A stretch of 64,000 bases of DNA from contig SHVS01000005.1 of the NCBI GenBank assembly GCA_009694135.1, positions 25,017 to 89,016 on the forward strand. Reading direction: 5' to 3'. Positions 38,568 to 46,461 of this stretch are shown piece after piece (the stretch's first letter is position 1; each line of letters starts with the position of its first letter). The DNA comes from Alphaproteobacteria bacterium. GTDB lineage: Bacteria > Pseudomonadota > Alphaproteobacteria > UBA6615. The notes under the pieces were generated by a model. The model was not told the DNA's origin. It did no database searches and was given only the letters and a program-made list of their open reading frames with translations. The translations under genes were made by a program, and so were the position numbers.

Positions 38568-39098
38568 TTAGTGGGCGCTGGTCGCCTTGCCGTTCGGTAG
38601 GGCGAGATCGGCGCGGACCGGCATCCGCTCACCCTTGGGCTCGCGCACCTGTTTGGCGACGACGGAGAGCGGCCGGATCTCGGCGGCCTGAGGATGCAGA
38701 TCGCTCAGTGTCAGCGGCTCCTCGTTCGGCTTCGAGTCGCGCGTCTCGCGGTGGCGAAGCTGCCCTTCGAAATACGCGCCGTACTCGATCGCGATGTTTT
38801 CGTGGCGGATATCGCCGATGACCCGCGCGGTCGGCGTGAGCGTCACCGCGCGGCCATTGATCTGGCCCTTGACCCGCCCGCAGATGCGCGCCGTTTCACA
38901 TTCAATCTCGCCGGCAATGGTCGCCGACTCGCCGACCGTGATCGACTGGCATTTGATGTTGCCCTCGACCAAGCCCTCGATCATCAAATCTCCCTGGCAC
39001 ACCAAATCGCCGATGATGCGCAATTCGGCGCTGATGATCGACGGCATGCCCCGACTCCCGTTATCGCGGCCCGAGGTCTTCTTACTGCTTGAAAACAT
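38568..39098 (-). CDS. Bactofilin (polymer-forming cytoskeletal protein)
   Basis: The start is placed at ATG 39098 (MFSSSKKTSGRDNGSRGMPS), giving 176 residues; the track start lies far into the upstream gene. The beta-helical DUF583 core reads SIISAELRIIGDLVCQGDLMIEGLVEGNIKCQSITVGE and AVTLTPTARVIGDIRHENIAIEYGAYFEGQL. Tails are disordered. Bactofilins form nucleotide-free filaments that position cell-wall enzymes. Its start overlaps the end of the M23 peptidase gene by 17 bases, a known pairing. Confidence 0.93.
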   Translation of the reverse strand: MFSSSKKTSGRDNGSRGMPSIISAELRIIGDLVCQGDLMIEGLVEGNIKCQSITVGESATIAGEIECETARICGRVKGQINGRAVTLTPTARVIGDIRHENIAIEYGAYFEGQLRHRETRDSKPNEEPLTLSDLHPQAAEIRPLSVVAKQVREPKGERMPVRADLALPNGKATSAH

Positions 39099-41385
39099 AT
39101 TTCCCTGCCCGCAAGAAGTTGGCTGGATCCAAGGTTTCGTCGTCGAACAGCACTTCGTAGTGCAAATGAAGACCCGTGCTGCGACCCGTGTTGCCGATGA
39201 TGCCGATCTTTTCGCGGAACTCAACTAGTTGATCGCGCACCACGTGAATCTCTTTTAAGTGGCCGTAGCGGGTACGCACGCCAAGGCCGTGATCTATCTC
39301 GATCATCTTGCCATAGCCGCCCTTGTAGCCGACGAAGGTCACGCGCCCCGGCGCGGTCGATAAGATGACCGAACCCGGTTCGGCGGACAGATCGACTCCG
39401 GTGTGAAAGGCCCATTCGCCGTTGAATGGGTCCTTGCGACGGCCATATCCGCCAGTGGACCAGGAATTGTCGATCGGCGGCGCCAGCGGAAGAATGGCGA
39501 GAATCTGCCGCAGACCGTCCATCCGGTCGAACTGGGTTTCGAGCAGGGCGATCCGTTCGGCCAGTTCAATCTGCGGCATGTCGGCGGGATCGTCGGCGAC
39601 AAACGGCCCGCCCTGCGGCTGCGGCACAAGGCCAAGCCGCATGAGGAGCTTGTTCGAGTTGAGGCCGGTCATGACGACCGTACGCTCGACCGAGTTGACG
39701 CCTTCGGTGGTCAGATCATTGAGTCGGGCCAGCGCGGGCTTGTTGTCTTCCGCCAGCCTGCCGAGTCGGTTCGCCAGCAGGTCAACCCGCTCGGCCAGCA
39801 TGTCGCGCTCGACCACCGCTTGGGATCGATCGTCGGCGAGAGTGGCCAGTAAGGCTTCCGCAGCGGCCAGGTCGTGCTCGACCAGAGTCTTCTCGCTCTT
39901 GAGGCGATCGATATCGGTCTCCAGGCGAGCGATTTCCCCTTGCGGTGTTTTTCCGCGGGCAGCCAGCAAGCCCTCCAGGCGATCGACCTTGGCGGCCAGC
40001 GCGCTGCGCTCGTCCTGCAAGCGGGCACGGTCGGTGACCGCCATGTTGAGTTCGGCGACACGCGCCGCCAGGGAGTTACGCTCCCCCTCCAGCCGGGCGC
40101 GCTCGGCGGCCAAGGGCTCGAGCGCCGTGACTTTGGCTTCAAGCCCGACGATGACGGCATGCGCCCGCGCCCTCTCGGCTTCGGCCGCTTCGCGCTCCTT
40201 GAGCTGGACCGCGAGCGCATTACGCTGCCGCTCGATTTCAGCCCGCTCGGCGGCCAGCGGCTTGAGCGCCGCCACCTCCTGCTCGAGCGCCAGGCGCGCG
40301 GTCTCCAGCTGGGCACGCTCGGCCACGGCGGATTCCAACTGCGCGAGGCGTGCGACCAGCGCCTTACGCTCGTCTTCGAGCTTTGTACGCTCGGCGACTT
40401 GCGGCGCCAGGGTCGCTACTTGTTCCTCAAGCCGCGTTCGCTCGACGATGAGTCGCTGACGCTCGGTCGCGGCCGCTTCCAGCACGGCCACGCGGTCTTG
40501 CAACGCCGTCCGTTCGGCCTCGAGTCTTGTCCGCACCGCCAGCAGCGGTTCCAGCTCGGCGACACGAGCAGCCAATTCGCGCCCCGTCTGCTCCAGCCGG
40601 CCACGATCTTGGGCGGCCGTCTCCAACCCGATCACGCGCGCGGCCAGCTCGTCCTGCTCGCGTTCGATTTCGGCGCGGGTGAGCAGCGCCTCTTCCAATT
40701 CGGCGATGCGCACTTCAAGCGCGGATTTGGCCTCGGTCGCGGTCGATAACTCGGCGATGCGCGCCTCAAGCGCGGCGTTGGCCTGGTCGAGAGCGGCGCG
40801 CTGTTCATGCGCCCTCTCAAGCTCGCCACGCGCCTCGGCCGTCTGACGCTGGAGGTCGTTCTCCTCGCTGCGCAACCCGGCCAATCGCGCCTCAAGCTCG
40901 CCAAGCCGCTGCGTGCCGCGTGCGTGCTCGTCTTCCATGCGCGCGATCTCGGCCTCGAGTTTGCTCTGCGCCGCCTCGGCAGCACCGGCATCGACAGGCG
41001 CCGCACGGTCGAGAAACTGCGGTAGATCGACCGATCGGCCAGGCGCTTTGGCCTCCGTGGCGCGACCTGCGCTGCCGGTCTTATTGATCTCGCGCATCAG
41101 CGCGGCGAGCTTCTGCCGCTCCGCCTGCAATTCCTGTTCGAGTTCGCGCGCATCCGGCGAGACCGAATGCTGCGCCGCCTGTTCAGGCGCGGAACGATCG
41201 GACATCAACCAATATGCGCTGGACATTAGGGAGAAAAGAAACAGCCCGCCGATGCCAGCGGCCAGCCCGATCTGCGCCGCCGGTGGTAGGCGCAGATAGA
41301 AAACGCGATCCTCGGTACGCAGGATGAGCTGTCGGTGTCGTGGAACGAGGAACACCGCGATGCGGCCGATCTCCCAACCTCGCAA
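39082..41385 (-). CDS. M23 (LytM) peptidoglycan peptidase with long coiled coil and 24-residue repeats
   Basis: This 767-residue type II membrane protein has a cytoplasmic N-terminus, a membrane helix (IGLAAGIGGLFLFSLMSSAYWL, about residues 39-60), a very long Glu/Arg/Leu-rich helical region and a C-terminal M23 domain. The zinc motifs are HTGVD, GHLKEIH and HLHYEV, all present, so the enzyme should be active. Residues 227-466 are ten tandem 24-residue repeats. M23 peptidases beside bactofilin genes shape the cell wall in other bacteria. This one is unusually long for that group. Confidence 0.92.
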   Translation of the reverse strand: MRGWEIGRIAVFLVPRHRQLILRTEDRVFYLRLPPAAQIGLAAGIGGLFLFSLMSSAYWLMSDRSAPEQAAQHSVSPDARELEQELQAERQKLAALMREINKTGSAGRATEAKAPGRSVDLPQFLDRAAPVDAGAAEAAQSKLEAEIARMEDEHARGTQRLGELEARLAGLRSEENDLQRQTAEARGELERAHEQRAALDQANAALEARIAELSTATEAKSALEVRIAELEEALLTRAEIEREQDELAARVIGLETAAQDRGRLEQTGRELAARVAELEPLLAVRTRLEAERTALQDRVAVLEAAATERQRLIVERTRLEEQVATLAPQVAERTKLEDERKALVARLAQLESAVAERAQLETARLALEQEVAALKPLAAERAEIERQRNALAVQLKEREAAEAERARAHAVIVGLEAKVTALEPLAAERARLEGERNSLAARVAELNMAVTDRARLQDERSALAAKVDRLEGLLAARGKTPQGEIARLETDIDRLKSEKTLVEHDLAAAEALLATLADDRSQAVVERDMLAERVDLLANRLGRLAEDNKPALARLNDLTTEGVNSVERTVVMTGLNSNKLLMRLGLVPQPQGGPFVADDPADMPQIELAERIALLETQFDRMDGLRQILAILPLAPPIDNSWSTGGYGRRKDPFNGEWAFHTGVDLSAEPGSVILSTAPGRVTFVGYKGGYGKMIEIDHGLGVRTRYGHLKEIHVVRDQLVEFREKIGIIGNTGRSTGLHLHYEVLFDDETLDPANFLRAGKYVFKQ
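39988..40707 (-). repeat. Ten tandem 72-bp units encoding 24-residue repeats
   Basis: Within the M23 peptidase, residues 227-466 divide into ten consecutive 24-residue units with no insertion or deletion. The approximate consensus is VAxLExxxAERxRLExERxALxAR. An eleventh, incomplete unit (17 residues) precedes them. Repeats are conserved at protein rather than DNA level, so they are old rather than a recent expansion. As 24 is not a multiple of 7, the helix phase shifts in each unit. Confidence 0.85.
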
Positions 41386-41577: not shown

Positions 41578-42042
41578 CTACTCTTCGCGGTGCGTGCGTT
41601 CCATCCGCTCGTGCATCTCCTGCGCCTCGAGACTCAGAGTCGCGATCGGACGCGCGATCAGCCGGCGGAGGCCGATGGCTTCGCCGGTTTCCTTGCAATA
41701 GCCGTAAGTGCCGTCGTCGATCCGGCGCAAGGCATCCTCGATTATCGTCAGCAGTTTGCGATAACGCTCGCGCGTATGCAGCTCGAGTGCGCGGTCGGTT
41801 TCCAGGCTGGCGCGATCGGTCAGGTCGGCCTCGTTCAGGCTCTCTTGCTGCAGACTCGCGAGCGTCTGCCCGGATTCGCGCAAGAGCTCCGCTCGCCAGT
41901 CGATCAGCCGGCGACGGAAATACTCGCGCATTTTCCGGTTCATAAATGCTTCCGCCTCGCTCGGCACATAGGCCTCACGAGGCTTCTTCCTGGAAATACC
42001 AGAGCTTTTGCGTCGAAGCTTAGTTTTCGCCTTAGCCTTCAA
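41578..42042 (-). CDS. dksA: DksA family RNA polymerase-binding regulator
   Basis: This is a 154-residue DksA protein. The basic N-terminal tail is followed by the coiled coil (MNRKMREYFRRRLIDWRAELLRESGQ ... DRASLETDRALELHTRERYRKLLTIIEDALRRIDDGTYGYC) and the C-terminal pseudo-zinc finger CKETGEAIGLRRLIARPIATLSLEAQE, which has a single Cys, as in alphaproteobacterial forms. DksA acts with ppGpp in the RNA polymerase secondary channel. It sits between fliX and the M23 gene; dksA next to fliX is common in this class. Confidence 0.95.
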   Translation of the reverse strand: MKAKAKTKLRRKSSGISRKKPREAYVPSEAEAFMNRKMREYFRRRLIDWRAELLRESGQTLASLQQESLNEADLTDRASLETDRALELHTRERYRKLLTIIEDALRRIDDGTYGYCKETGEAIGLRRLIARPIATLSLEAQEMHERMERTHREE

Positions 42043-42126
42043 CCGGGCCTCCGCGGTGCTCGTCGAAAAAGCGGGCGGAGTATAGGCATTCGCCGGCTGG
42101 CGACAAGGCGGCTGGCGCGTCGGTGG

Positions 42127-42555
42127 CTAAAAGGCCTCTAGCTTGGCGAGCTCGACGCTCGCACGCAGCTCGATTTCGGCCAGGAGTTCGGCCAAGAGCG
42201 GGTCAGGTGGCGGTATAATACGATCCTTGAGCCGCCCCAGCAGCGTCTCGAGCTGCTGGGGCGGTAGTACCCCGGCAAGCAGCCCGGCTCGGATATCTTC
42301 CAGTCCGCGCAGCAAATCTTCGGCCCGCATGCGGCCAAGCCGGCGGGCCTTACCGCTGGTCGAATCATCGACGCCCTGCATGGCCAACAGCGCCTCGATC
42401 GAGCCAAGCGGAAGAGTGCCGGACACAGCCGAGGCAGCGCCGCCCCCCTGCCCCTTTTCCAGGCGACGGGCGAAGTCGCCGCCGCGCGCTGGCGACGAGC
42501 GTGTGGAGCGAGCAATCGCTCCCGCCTTCACCGAGCCTGAACGATCGATTTGCAT
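42127..42555 (-). CDS. fliX: Flagellar assembly regulator FliX
   Basis: The preferred start is ATG 42555 (MQIDRSGSVKAGAIARSTRS), giving 142 residues; the track adds 14. Family features are SGTLPLGSIEALLAMQGVDD and the C-terminal helices LEDIRAGLLAGVLPPQQLETLLGRL and LLAEIELRASVELAKLE. FliX is confined to Alphaproteobacteria and, with FlbD, couples flagellar basal-body assembly to later gene expression. No flgI/flgJ is seen here; dksA follows 84 bases on. Confidence 0.9.
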   Translation of the reverse strand: MQIDRSGSVKAGAIARSTRSSPARGGDFARRLEKGQGGGAASAVSGTLPLGSIEALLAMQGVDDSTSGKARRLGRMRAEDLLRGLEDIRAGLLAGVLPPQQLETLLGRLKDRIIPPPDPLLAELLAEIELRASVELAKLEAF

Positions 42556-42623
42556 GAGATTCAACGCGCTCCGGTTTCTGGGACGCTCAAACTTCAAACG
42601 AGCTTAGAGTGCGACCGTTATGC

Positions 42624-43805
42624 TTAGCTCTTCGTTAAAGCCGCGGTTTGGGCCGGGCTACGGGGGGAAACATATCGTTGGTAGAGAAACCCGATGCCGA
42701 TCAGCGACCCGCCGAGCCCGACGAATGACGCCACCCGCCACAAATCGCGCAACTCCGACATGTCGATCAGAAAGACCTTGGCGACCGTAAGCATCATCAG
42801 CGCCAGGGACGCATAGCGCAGGCTGGCTAGGCCAGAACGCAACCCGAGTGCGAGCAGCACCCCGGCATAGATCAGCCAGACGAGCGAATAAGTATAAAGC
42901 TCGCTCTCGGCCGCGTTCGACCCCCTGAGTACATCGCCGCGGAATAGATGCCGCGTCTCCAAGGAGAGATAAACAAACACCAGCACATAGGCAGCCAGCG
43001 CCGCCCACAGGGCCGGACCCGCCCGCCCGGCGTGCCGGTAAAGGCGTGCGAACAACAGGGCGAATATCGCCGGAACAAAATAGGCCAGAAGCAGTAGGTC
43101 GAAGATCGCCCAAGCGCCGACCCGCTCTCCCGTGAAGATCGGATTATTGGCCAGCAGCTGACCCAGGATCACTTGCGCTGCGGCCAGCGCCGCCAAGGCC
43201 CGTCCGCCCCAAAGTAGCGCGGGACGAGCGTCGAGCGCGGGCGTGCGGGCAAGGCCATAGCTGATCGCCAGCCAGGAAATCGTCTGCAGGCTCTGCTCGA
43301 ATAATCCATAGCGCGGCGCATTAAGCCGCTCGCCCACCAGGCTACGTAATTCGAAAGAGACCAGCAAAGTCACGAAGGCGAGCGCTCCGGCTTCGAGCAG
43401 CCCAACCAGCCAAACGTCGCGCGTGGTGCGGAAACTGCGCGCCGCAGAGGCAAATGCAGCCGCCGGGACTCCGTAGCCATACAGCATCCAGTTGAGCAGC
43501 GGAGTCGTTCCCAGCGCGTAATCGAAAATGCGTGGATTGAGCGCCAAACGGACGAGAACCACCCCGGCGATGATCGCTGCCAAACTGCGCAACGAATTGG
43601 CTCGGAGCTTGGCGTGGATCCAGGCAAGCGCCGGCAATTCAAGCGCCAGGGCGACGGTCAGCCACGCATTTTCGAATGCCATGGCAGCGCCGAGCGACAG
43701 CAAGGCCACCACGGCGGCGGCATAGGCGGCGGCGACCTCGGTAAAGCCAGGCGCGTCCCGGTGGCGCAGCACCCGCTCGGCGGCGGCGACCGCCAGAGCA
43801 GCCAA
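42624..43805 (-). CDS. DUF2339 membrane protein, C-terminal part (split from the N-terminal part by TGA)
   Basis: This ORF has about 393 residues and 10 or more hydrophobic helices, ending with the typical DUF2339 tail TVAKVFLIDMSELRDLWRVASFVGLGGSLIGIGFLYQRYV. The track start is a TTG inside what should be a transmembrane segment. The true reading frame continues upstream without a break to TGA 43857-43859 and then into the N-terminal ORF. It is thus the second half of one gene. DUF2339 proteins are about 900 residues long and of unknown function. Confidence 0.8.
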   Translation of the reverse strand: MAALAVAAAERVLRHRDAPGFTEVAAAYAAAVVALLSLGAAMAFENAWLTVALALELPALAWIHAKLRANSLRSLAAIIAGVVLVRLALNPRIFDYALGTTPLLNWMLYGYGVPAAAFASAARSFRTTRDVWLVGLLEAGALAFVTLLVSFELRSLVGERLNAPRYGLFEQSLQTISWLAISYGLARTPALDARPALLWGGRALAALAAAQVILGQLLANNPIFTGERVGAWAIFDLLLLAYFVPAIFALLFARLYRHAGRAGPALWAALAAYVLVFVYLSLETRHLFRGDVLRGSNAAESELYTYSLVWLIYAGVLLALGLRSGLASLRYASLALMMLTVAKVFLIDMSELRDLWRVASFVGLGGSLIGIGFLYQRYVSPRSPAQTAALTKS

Positions 43806-43856
43806 GCCGACCGCGACCAGGGTCCAACGCAGGTCGAGACCGAAACCAAGGATCCG

Positions 43857-45377
43857 TCAATAGCCGATGGCTAGCGCCAGAACAGGCGTAAACCCCGAGC
43901 TCCAGGCGAAAAGGCCGGGTCGCCGCGCGCCCCACAGGGCGATGAACCCGCCACCGGCAATGAGCGCTGACAACCCGGCCGCGACCACGGCAAAGACTTG
44001 CAGCTCCGGCGGGAGGATCGGCCCCGGCACGGTCCCTTGGGTCTCGCCCATGATCGAAATCATCGGCGCGTTGCGGGTGATCAGCGTCGGCAGATGCCAC
44101 GTCGCCAATAAACACAGTGCCACACCGGCGGACACCGGCGCCAGGACATCGAAGGCACTCTCGCGCCGCGCGAAGGCAAGGTAACATGCGATCAAAAGTG
44201 CTGCCGCGACCAGCCCGCCCGGCCCATAGCGGTCCATGCGCACCAGCGCATATAGCAAGCTGGCGACGGCAAGCGCGGCCGTAAGCGCGACTCGATCGGC
44301 GGGCGATAAGCCTCCAAAACCGTCGCTCAACGTGACCGGCCGGCTCCTTGTCCCCGGGACGCGCAGCAGAAAAAGAAATAGGCCCACCAGCAGCAGGTAA
44401 GTCGCGAGCGGCAAGACGTCGCCCGGAGACCAGGTCGTCGCCATCCATAACAGCGGCCAGAGTGCCGCGCCGGCCAGCGCCGCCCAGGCGAGCCACGCCG
44501 CGCCAATGACTCGTACGACGAGCAAGGCGCCGGCGGTGATCGCCAGGAGATAGGGGAACAATCCCCAGGCGGAGGGCTGCCCGGTCGAAACCAGGAACGG
44601 TGTCAGATAGCCGCCAAGGATGCCGAGCAGCGCAACAAATGGCCCGTGCCAGATGGCCAAAACGCCGGCCCCAGCCGCCACCGATCCGAGCAAAGCGAAG
44701 GCCAAGAGCGGCCCGATCAGCGCATAAAGCTCATAGGCGGCGAAAACGCTGGCGAACAGCGCGAAGAGACCGGCCGCGATCAGCGCCGGCGGAACCGTAT
44801 TCGGCTGCATGGAGGCAATGGCGTGCCCCAGCGGCCGGGCGCGCACCCATTCTCCAGCGGCGATCAATCCGAGCCCGAACAGCGCGCCCATTAACACGCG
44901 CACGACCGGCGAGAGCAGGCCCTGGTCGATCGAGTACTTGACCAGGAACCCGGCGGCGAGCGCGAGCGTGCCCGCGCCGAGCCAGACCAGCCAACGCGAG
45001 GCGAGGCGCTCCTCCAGCCCCGGCTCCTTGGACGATGCCGAGCCCGATACCGGCGCAACCGGAGGCGCAGGCGGGACAACGGCTGGCGGCCGGGACCCTC
45101 TTTCCGCCGATTCCCAAGGCGTTGGCGGTACGACCGGCGCGCTGCTTGGCTGAGGCGGCGGCGGAGCGGCGACCGTCGGCGGCTGGCCTGACAGCCGCCC
45201 CATCTGGCGCCGCAGCTCGATCTGTTCGCTGTCGAGGCGGCGCAATGCGTCGAGCGTTGCCGCAAGCTGTTGCTGCAAGGACTTGAGCCGGCCGAACGCC
45301 GCCAAGCCAAAACCCGGCCCGACCAGGAGATAGATGGCAAAAGCCAGGCCGAGGAGAACCCAGACTATTTTGTCCAA
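43857..45377 (-). CDS. DUF2339 membrane protein, N-terminal part (ends at in-frame TGA)
   Basis: The start is best placed at TTG 45377, seven bases after AGGAG (product LDKIVWVLLGLAFAIYLLVG), giving about 506 residues; the track start at 45785 lies inside the lysR gene. It has an N-terminal helix, a short coiled coil (LKSLQQQLAATLDALRRLDSEQIELRRQM), a Pro-rich linker, then the DUF2339 membrane core beginning RWLVWLGAGTLALAAGFLVKYSIDQGLL. It stops at TGA after VLALAIGY, in the same frame as the downstream ORF. The role is unknown. Confidence 0.8.
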   Translation of the reverse strand: MDKIVWVLLGLAFAIYLLVGPGFGLAAFGRLKSLQQQLAATLDALRRLDSEQIELRRQMGRLSGQPPTVAAPPPPQPSSAPVVPPTPWESAERGSRPPAVVPPAPPVAPVSGSASSKEPGLEERLASRWLVWLGAGTLALAAGFLVKYSIDQGLLSPVVRVLMGALFGLGLIAAGEWVRARPLGHAIASMQPNTVPPALIAAGLFALFASVFAAYELYALIGPLLAFALLGSVAAGAGVLAIWHGPFVALLGILGGYLTPFLVSTGQPSAWGLFPYLLAITAGALLVVRVIGAAWLAWAALAGAALWPLLWMATTWSPGDVLPLATYLLLVGLFLFLLRVPGTRSRPVTLSDGFGGLSPADRVALTAALAVASLLYALVRMDRYGPGGLVAAALLIACYLAFARRESAFDVLAPVSAGVALCLLATWHLPTLITRNAPMISIMGETQGTVPGPILPPELQVFAVVAAGLSALIAGGGFIALWGARRPGLFAWSSGFTPVLALAIGY

Positions 45378-45471
45378 AGCCGAACTCCTGCGCCCCGATT
45401 TTCCCTTGGCCGCGCGTGACGGTACAAGTACCAGATTGCCCGCTTCCAAGGGCCGCGCAAATAGGATTGCA

Positions 45472-46461
45472 ATGGCAAATACTGGACCGATGTCACTACA
45501 CCAGCTTCGCATTTTCTGGGCGGTGGCGCATTCCGACTCGCTGACCAAGGCGAGCAAGCTGCTCGGCCTGACCCAGCCGTCGCTGTCACAGCATCTGGCG
45601 AAGCTGGAAAAGTCGCTTGGGACACGCGTGTTCAAACGTGGCGGCAGCAAGCTTGAATTGACCGACGCCGGCGCCTTCCTGATGCGCCGCGCCGAATTGA
45701 TCCTGGCCGAGGTCGACGAGACCCAAGCGGGATTGCGGCAATTCGCGACCGGCGAGCATGGCTCGATTTCGATCGGCGCACCCAATTCAATCGCGCGCCT
45801 GCTCGTGCCGTCCGTTTACGCCAAAGTGGCCAAGCAATACAGCGCGCTCGACATCGACGTGCATGAAGTGGCTCCGGCGGAGGCGATCAATCTTCTCTAT
45901 GGCCGGCGGTTGCATATCGCTTTGATCGCGCGCGCCTCGATCGCCGGGGCGAGCCTATCGTTTCATCAGAGCGAGATCATATCCGACCCGTATGTGCTGG
46001 CCGTGCCGAAGGGCCTCTCACTCGGCGGCATCAGCGATCCCGAGCGTGAGTTGGCCGAACCAGAGCGGCGAATACTCAATAGCTGCATCCAGTTCAGCTT
46101 CGGCACCCTGCACACGCAACGCGTCGCCGAATGGTATCGCCGAACCCTGCCGCGTCACCGCCTGGTCGCGCAGACGCGTACCTATGACATGGCGCTATCG
46201 CTGGTCGAAGCCGGCGTCGGTGTCGCGCTCGTTCCGGCACTAGCCGCCTATATCGGCCAGGACTCGCTCCCGTTCGCCGTCACGCTCTATCGCACCCATT
46301 TGCCGGGGCGCTCGATCGTGGCGCTCATGCCGACGCAATATGTACGCGCGCAACCTTATGCCGCCTTCCGTGAGGCCTTGATCGATGCCGGAAAAAGAAT
46401 CGGCACACCGCCCACCGAGCCAACGCCCCCCTTCATGCCTCGTGAAGTAAAGGATAATTGA
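45472..46461 (+). CDS. LysR family transcriptional regulator
   Basis: The start is set at ATG 45472 (MANTGPMSLHQLRIFWAVAH), giving 329 residues. The winged helix-turn-helix is LRIFWAVAHSDSLTKASKLLGLTQPSLSQHLAKLEKSLGTRVFKRGG (about residues 11-57), followed by a LysR effector domain (ISIGAPNSIARLLVPSVYAKVAK onward). It is divergent from the DUF2339 gene and upstream of pqqABCDE on the same strand with a 435-base gap. Control of pqq is possible from position alone. Confidence 0.92.
   Translation: MANTGPMSLHQLRIFWAVAHSDSLTKASKLLGLTQPSLSQHLAKLEKSLGTRVFKRGGSKLELTDAGAFLMRRAELILAEVDETQAGLRQFATGEHGSISIGAPNSIARLLVPSVYAKVAKQYSALDIDVHEVAPAEAINLLYGRRLHIALIARASIAGASLSFHQSEIISDPYVLAVPKGLSLGGISDPERELAEPERRILNSCIQFSFGTLHTQRVAEWYRRTLPRHRLVAQTRTYDMALSLVEAGVGVALVPALAAYIGQDSLPFAVTLYRTHLPGRSIVALMPTQYVRAQPYAAFREALIDAGKRIGTPPTEPTPPFMPREVKDN

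Follow-up and report, generated by a model that had tools for sequence, protein, structure and literature searches.

The BacA-LmdC module shapes many bacteria. LmdC is a DD-endopeptidase that the bactofilin BacA recruits via a hairpin, and this β-hairpin, located at the LmdC N-terminus, is the bactofilin-binding element; in Hyphomonas neptunium, the lmdC and bacA genes overlap by 17 bp (PMC10945521). Most alphaproteobacterial members of the family also carry a DUF5930 region (PMC8416486). The 64,000-nucleotide stretch of DNA analyzed here (the window) comes from a draft genome that is 79% complete and encodes an M23 peptidase of this type, in which an array of 24-residue repeats lies between the membrane anchor and the enzyme.

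The LmdC-type gene and its bactofilin neighbor

The features of the gene pair are as follows (window coordinates).

39082 to 41385, minus strand: lmdC-type M23 peptidase gene, 767 aa, with a TTG start and a ribosome-site-like GGGGG run just 5′ of it
41287 to 41334, minus strand: N-terminal cytoplasmic β-hairpin, residues 18-33 (AF2 strands 18-24 and 27-33)
41203 to 41280, minus strand: transmembrane helix, approximately residues 36-61 (hydrophobic stretch within AF2 helix 35-73)
39124 to 39408, minus strand: M23 catalytic domain, residues 660-754, with H661, D665, H740, and H742 (PF01551 match)
38568 to 39098, minus strand: bactofilin gene of the bacA type, 176 aa, ATG at 39098, N-terminus MFSSSKK (PF04519, E = 1.3e-24)
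39082 to 39098, minus strand: lmdC/bacA overlap, 17 bp, the same length as in H. neptunium

The PF01551 match at residues 660-754 is strong (E = 4e-26, 91.5 bits), and the HxxxD and HxH motifs of the domain are intact (H661, D665, H740, and H742). Comparison of 41 sequences revealed invariance of H661, D665, and H740 and near invariance of H742. AF2 modeled most of the domain with a pLDDT above 95, and its best relatives among solved structures are M23 peptidases, e.g., NMB0315 and ShyA. Along with these active-type motifs, the protein has an N-terminal hairpin followed by a single transmembrane helix, a periplasmic coiled-coil region (helices between the membrane segment and the M23 domain in the AF2 model, together with a periodic apolar stripe), and a place in a bactofilin operon. 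The DUF5930 profile (PF19353) scored 18.7 bits, for a cut-off of 27. The domain order, catalytic residues, and downstream bactofilin gene identify the 767-aa protein as an LmdC orthologue, which would be expected, by analogy with LmdC of other species, to act as a DD-endopeptidase and to bind BacA.

The initial annotation had described this peptidase as bactofilin linked, and the overlap of 17 bp between the end of lmdC and a PF04519 bactofilin gene bears this out. Such an arrangement is common in the family: of 131 loci, 118 have a bactofilin gene downstream of the lmdC homologue, and 57 of 132 show an overlap of exactly 17 bp. In the window, the overlapping nucleotides (39082-39098) encode both the LmdC C-terminus (YVFKQ followed by the stop) and the first residues of the peptide that targets BacA to the membrane (MFSSSK); the corresponding peptide in Caulobacter is MFSKQAKS (PMC12448750). 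Most other overlapping loci (-11, -20, -23, -26, -29, -32, and -44) keep the relative frame unchanged, so that [YH]VFK and MFS[KR] are often co-encoded. Immediately upstream of lmdC, and in its orientation, are dksA and the flagellar regulator gene fliX (41578-42597). A DUF2339 membrane protein at 42624-45785 is divided between two ORFs in different frames (profile positions 2-294 and 254-658), reflecting a frameshift, a pseudogene, or an assembly error.

The 24-residue repeat array and its distribution

The repeats occupy the following positions.

39988 to 40707, minus strand: ten gapless 24-residue units, residues 227-466, with an apolar period of 3.43 (self-offset, codon, and spectrum analyses)
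40708 to 40758, minus strand: degenerate unit of 17 residues, one heptad short of 24, at residues 210-226 (a self-offset of 17 scores best or close to it)
39952 to 39987, minus strand: partial 11th unit (half unit), residues 467-478, followed by the GKTPQG break (self-offset analysis)

The division of residues 227-466 into ten indel-free units, first noticed in the initial annotation, maps exactly to 39988-40707 and was confirmed statistically (z of approximately 8 to 14). The three highest-scoring self-offsets of all those tested were 48, 24, and 72 residues (mean BLOSUM62 scores of 1.82, 1.34, and 1.26, respectively), and the next fell below 0.5. Array self-similarity reached z values of 7.6 to 14 against residue, 4-mer block, and 7-mer block shuffles, which stayed at or below 0.67 for all offsets between 15 and 79. 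The units share 20 to 62% protein identity, with strong conservation at position 1 (V, L, or I in 10/10 units), L4 (9/10), R11 (10/10), L or I14 (9/10), R18 (7/10), and L21 (10/10). Odd and even units differ (the best of 126 possible splits), the odd ones being more alike than the even ones, which explains the best period of 48 and makes the array a 48-residue repeat as well. Proline occupies position 6 in units 3, 5, 7, and 9; at this 48-residue spacing, the prolines may bend the rod or make it fold.

At unit offsets, the same codon was used at 161 of 421 same-residue sites, for 153 expected from codon usage (ratio of 1.05; 1.02 at control offsets). Codon sharing near the codon-usage expectation indicates that silent sites are saturated and that the duplication is old; the earlier proposal that the DNA copies diverged while the protein pattern was kept thus holds. 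TRF did not detect the array in the DNA at 39988-40707. Recent DNA duplication and assembly artefact were both rejected because the silent sites are randomised. Pfam and NCBIfam searches with the array returned nothing specific and yielded weak generic coiled-coil matches (e.g., SMC models).

We compared the protein with 125 other LmdC-type proteins. Their stalks range from 104 to 393 residues (median of 204), and that of the protein studied here measures about 480 to 500. The 24-residue period was absent from all 125 homologues (next-best z of 3.9 versus 10.1 here). A search with the array sequence across 385 genomes of the class found no match outside its own genome, and a query of 190 genomes around G039 retrieved no relative, with one weak match at 3.8e-4. 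Neither the genomes sampled from its family nor a GTDB 220 scan yielded close relatives with other unit numbers. The array thus appears to be lineage specific as far as sampled. One homologue, from the alphaproteobacterial genome G076 (L024/L087; L087:3367-5415), has tandem units of 38 residues (z of 11 to 12; 38/11 = 3.45). As a separate observation, many homologues (L007-L147) have in common that their heptad coils match themselves strongly at offsets of 28, 49, and 77 residues, which suggests an ancient internal repeat common to the LmdC family.

Helical periodicity and structure models

The spectrum of L, I, V, M, and F residues over the array peaked at 3.425, close to 24/7 (3.43), with the flanks at 3.495 and 3.51. 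Sliding windows of 96 residues gave 3.41 to 3.445 across the array and returned to approximately 3.5 outside. Of the homologues, 97 show a clear apolar period (median of 3.50), and nearly all of these are heptad coils; only 0.55% of 545 homologue windows of 144 residues were at or below 3.445. On a 24/7 helical wheel, the core stripe consists of L4, R11, L21, R18, L14, V1, and A7/A8, so that arginine is found in two of the seven core layers, R11 being invariant. The Kyte-Doolittle scale also put its top peak at this period, but the presence of arginine in the core stripe kept the peak from reaching significance.

Most non-heptad coiled coils lie above 3.5, and stammers, for which 10/3 is the assumed lower limit, raise left-handed winding (PMC4786415). 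With an apolar period of 24/7, a unit can be parsed into two heptads and one decad, i.e., one stammer per 24 residues, and this reading predicts an overwound, more tightly left-handed helix. By simple phase arithmetic, the supercoil pitch would shorten from approximately 15 to approximately 9 nm. The array therefore departs from the heptad period of 3.5 (3.425 to 3.43, between flanks at 3.50) and, at the level of its sequence, matches 7+7+10. This agrees with the earlier assertion that a 24-residue period is not that of an ordinary heptad coil, the apolar period being 3.43 versus 3.50 in both flanks and homologues.

AF2 modeling of the full protein from 41 sequences (mean pLDDT of 75, pTM of 0.41) predicted helices at residues 133-262, 271-476, and 482-572; the stretch 257-271 had pLDDT values below 50 and was partly non-helical. 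Modeled alone from a single sequence, the array formed one continuous helix (residues 2-277 of 283, pLDDT of 86). Both monomer models have a low pTM (0.41 and 0.27). The models support helix continuity through the prolines rather than any particular oligomer.

Origin, possible role, and described counterparts

We favor, with a probability of about two in three, the explanation that this is an LmdC orthologue whose stalk was lengthened by an old, lineage-specific tandem duplication and that selection kept its helix and register. The membrane-anchored M23 DD-endopeptidase would be recruited by the BacA bactofilin for local loosening of peptidoglycan. Tandem duplication of a 24-residue and then of a 48-residue segment would have generated a longer periplasmic coiled coil, with later selection maintaining helix and register. 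The array would then be an extended rod, wound more tightly in the left-handed sense and probably formed by two parallel chains, with two of its seven core layers occupied by arginine. With the N-terminal hairpin bound to the bactofilin filament, the stalk could bring the enzyme up to the wall; we infer dimer state, handedness, and function of the array. The evidence for expansion comes from the sequence: the units are ten in number and exact, their silent sites are saturated, the 24/7 period lies inside flanks at 3.50, and the array is absent from the sampled homologues.

A clearly less probable explanation is that a permissive linker was expanded by tandem duplication and became a neutral relic, in which the 24-residue period is merely inherited and the role is limited to helicity. 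Confinement of the array to one lineage, the 38-residue units of another, and the very variable coil length all fit a neutral relic. However, V1, L4, R11, L14, and L21 have stayed near invariant, and no indel has entered 240 residues, despite randomised silent sites.

It is unlikely that the rod is instead a folded-back helical bundle, in which the prolines would split the chain every 48 residues into antiparallel-packed helices of approximately 7 nm. Such folding would account for the position 6 prolines of units 3, 5, 7, and 9 and for the 48-residue super-period, but units 3 to 10 contain no loop sequences, and the AF2 helix runs unbroken through P328, P376, and P424.

The initial annotation had also proposed a defined rod or ruler of about 240 residues between the membrane anchor and the enzyme. 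A ruler of this kind, holding membrane and wall at a fixed spacing, now seems improbable, more so than a bundle. The gapless units and the long continuous AF2 helix would suit a ruler, and the determinant of the inner-membrane-to-wall distance is unknown (PMC5771553). Nonetheless, no sampled homologue keeps the unit (0 of 125 with a 24-residue period, one with 38-residue units), and the coils are anywhere between 104 and 393 residues long. The annotation had itself set the check, namely that the number of units should differ between species and their length should not; this pattern was not observed in the 125 homologues. Moreover, an array of 36 nm (240 × 0.15 nm) exceeds the 30 to 32 nm that separate the inner and outer membranes in E. 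coli (PMC8824477) and thus could not stand straight and perpendicular unless the periplasm is much wider in this species. The stalk most likely lies parallel to the envelope or folds up instead of crossing it straight. As this protein shows, an LmdC stalk can grow to over twice its length and adopt another helical periodicity without loss of the enzyme or of the connection to bactofilin, and this speaks against a role in keeping a fixed distance.

Finally, an ordinary heptad coiled coil that is periodic in appearance only, as the helical, E/R/L/A-rich composition and the heptad coils of nearly all clear-period homologues might suggest, is refuted at the sequence level by the spectrum (3.43 over 240 residues) and by offset peaks at 24, 48, and 72, which are not multiples of 7.

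More speculatively, the array might be assigned to a class of regular overwound rods, as a uniform natural coiled coil with a period of 24/7 = 3.43 over at least 240 residues and an invariant arginine core layer in every unit. If this is true, the G076 lineage (38/11) would have acquired such a rod independently, a hint that LmdC may favor 7n+3 expansions. The array could also serve, as a naturally occurring sequence, to test the limits of coiled-coil overwinding. A literature search with partial coverage found no papers on a 24-residue coiled-coil repeat. The closest precedents are the stammer (decad) insertions described in PMC4786415 (citing Brown 1996 and Hartmann 2009), which likewise insert three residues relative to heptads and lower the period below 3.5. 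Those stammers are local interruptions, whereas here one occurs per 24 residues across ten units, with a conserved core arginine.

Among peptidases, EnvC, MepM, and ShyA have the M23 fold in common with this protein (Foldseek and HMMER matches) but belong to other clades, and their family models score far below equivalog cut-offs here. The G076 LmdC (L087) resembles it in having a long stalk with non-heptad 7n+3 tandem units; its unit, however, spans 38 residues (38/11) and differs in sequence, and its array is apparently an independent expansion. LmdC of H. neptunium and Rhodospirillum rubrum (BacA-LmdC; PMC10945521) shares the hairpin, transmembrane helix, coiled coil, M23 domain, and bacA operon with the protein described here, which differs in building its stalk from 24-residue repeats at a 24/7 period, not from heptads.
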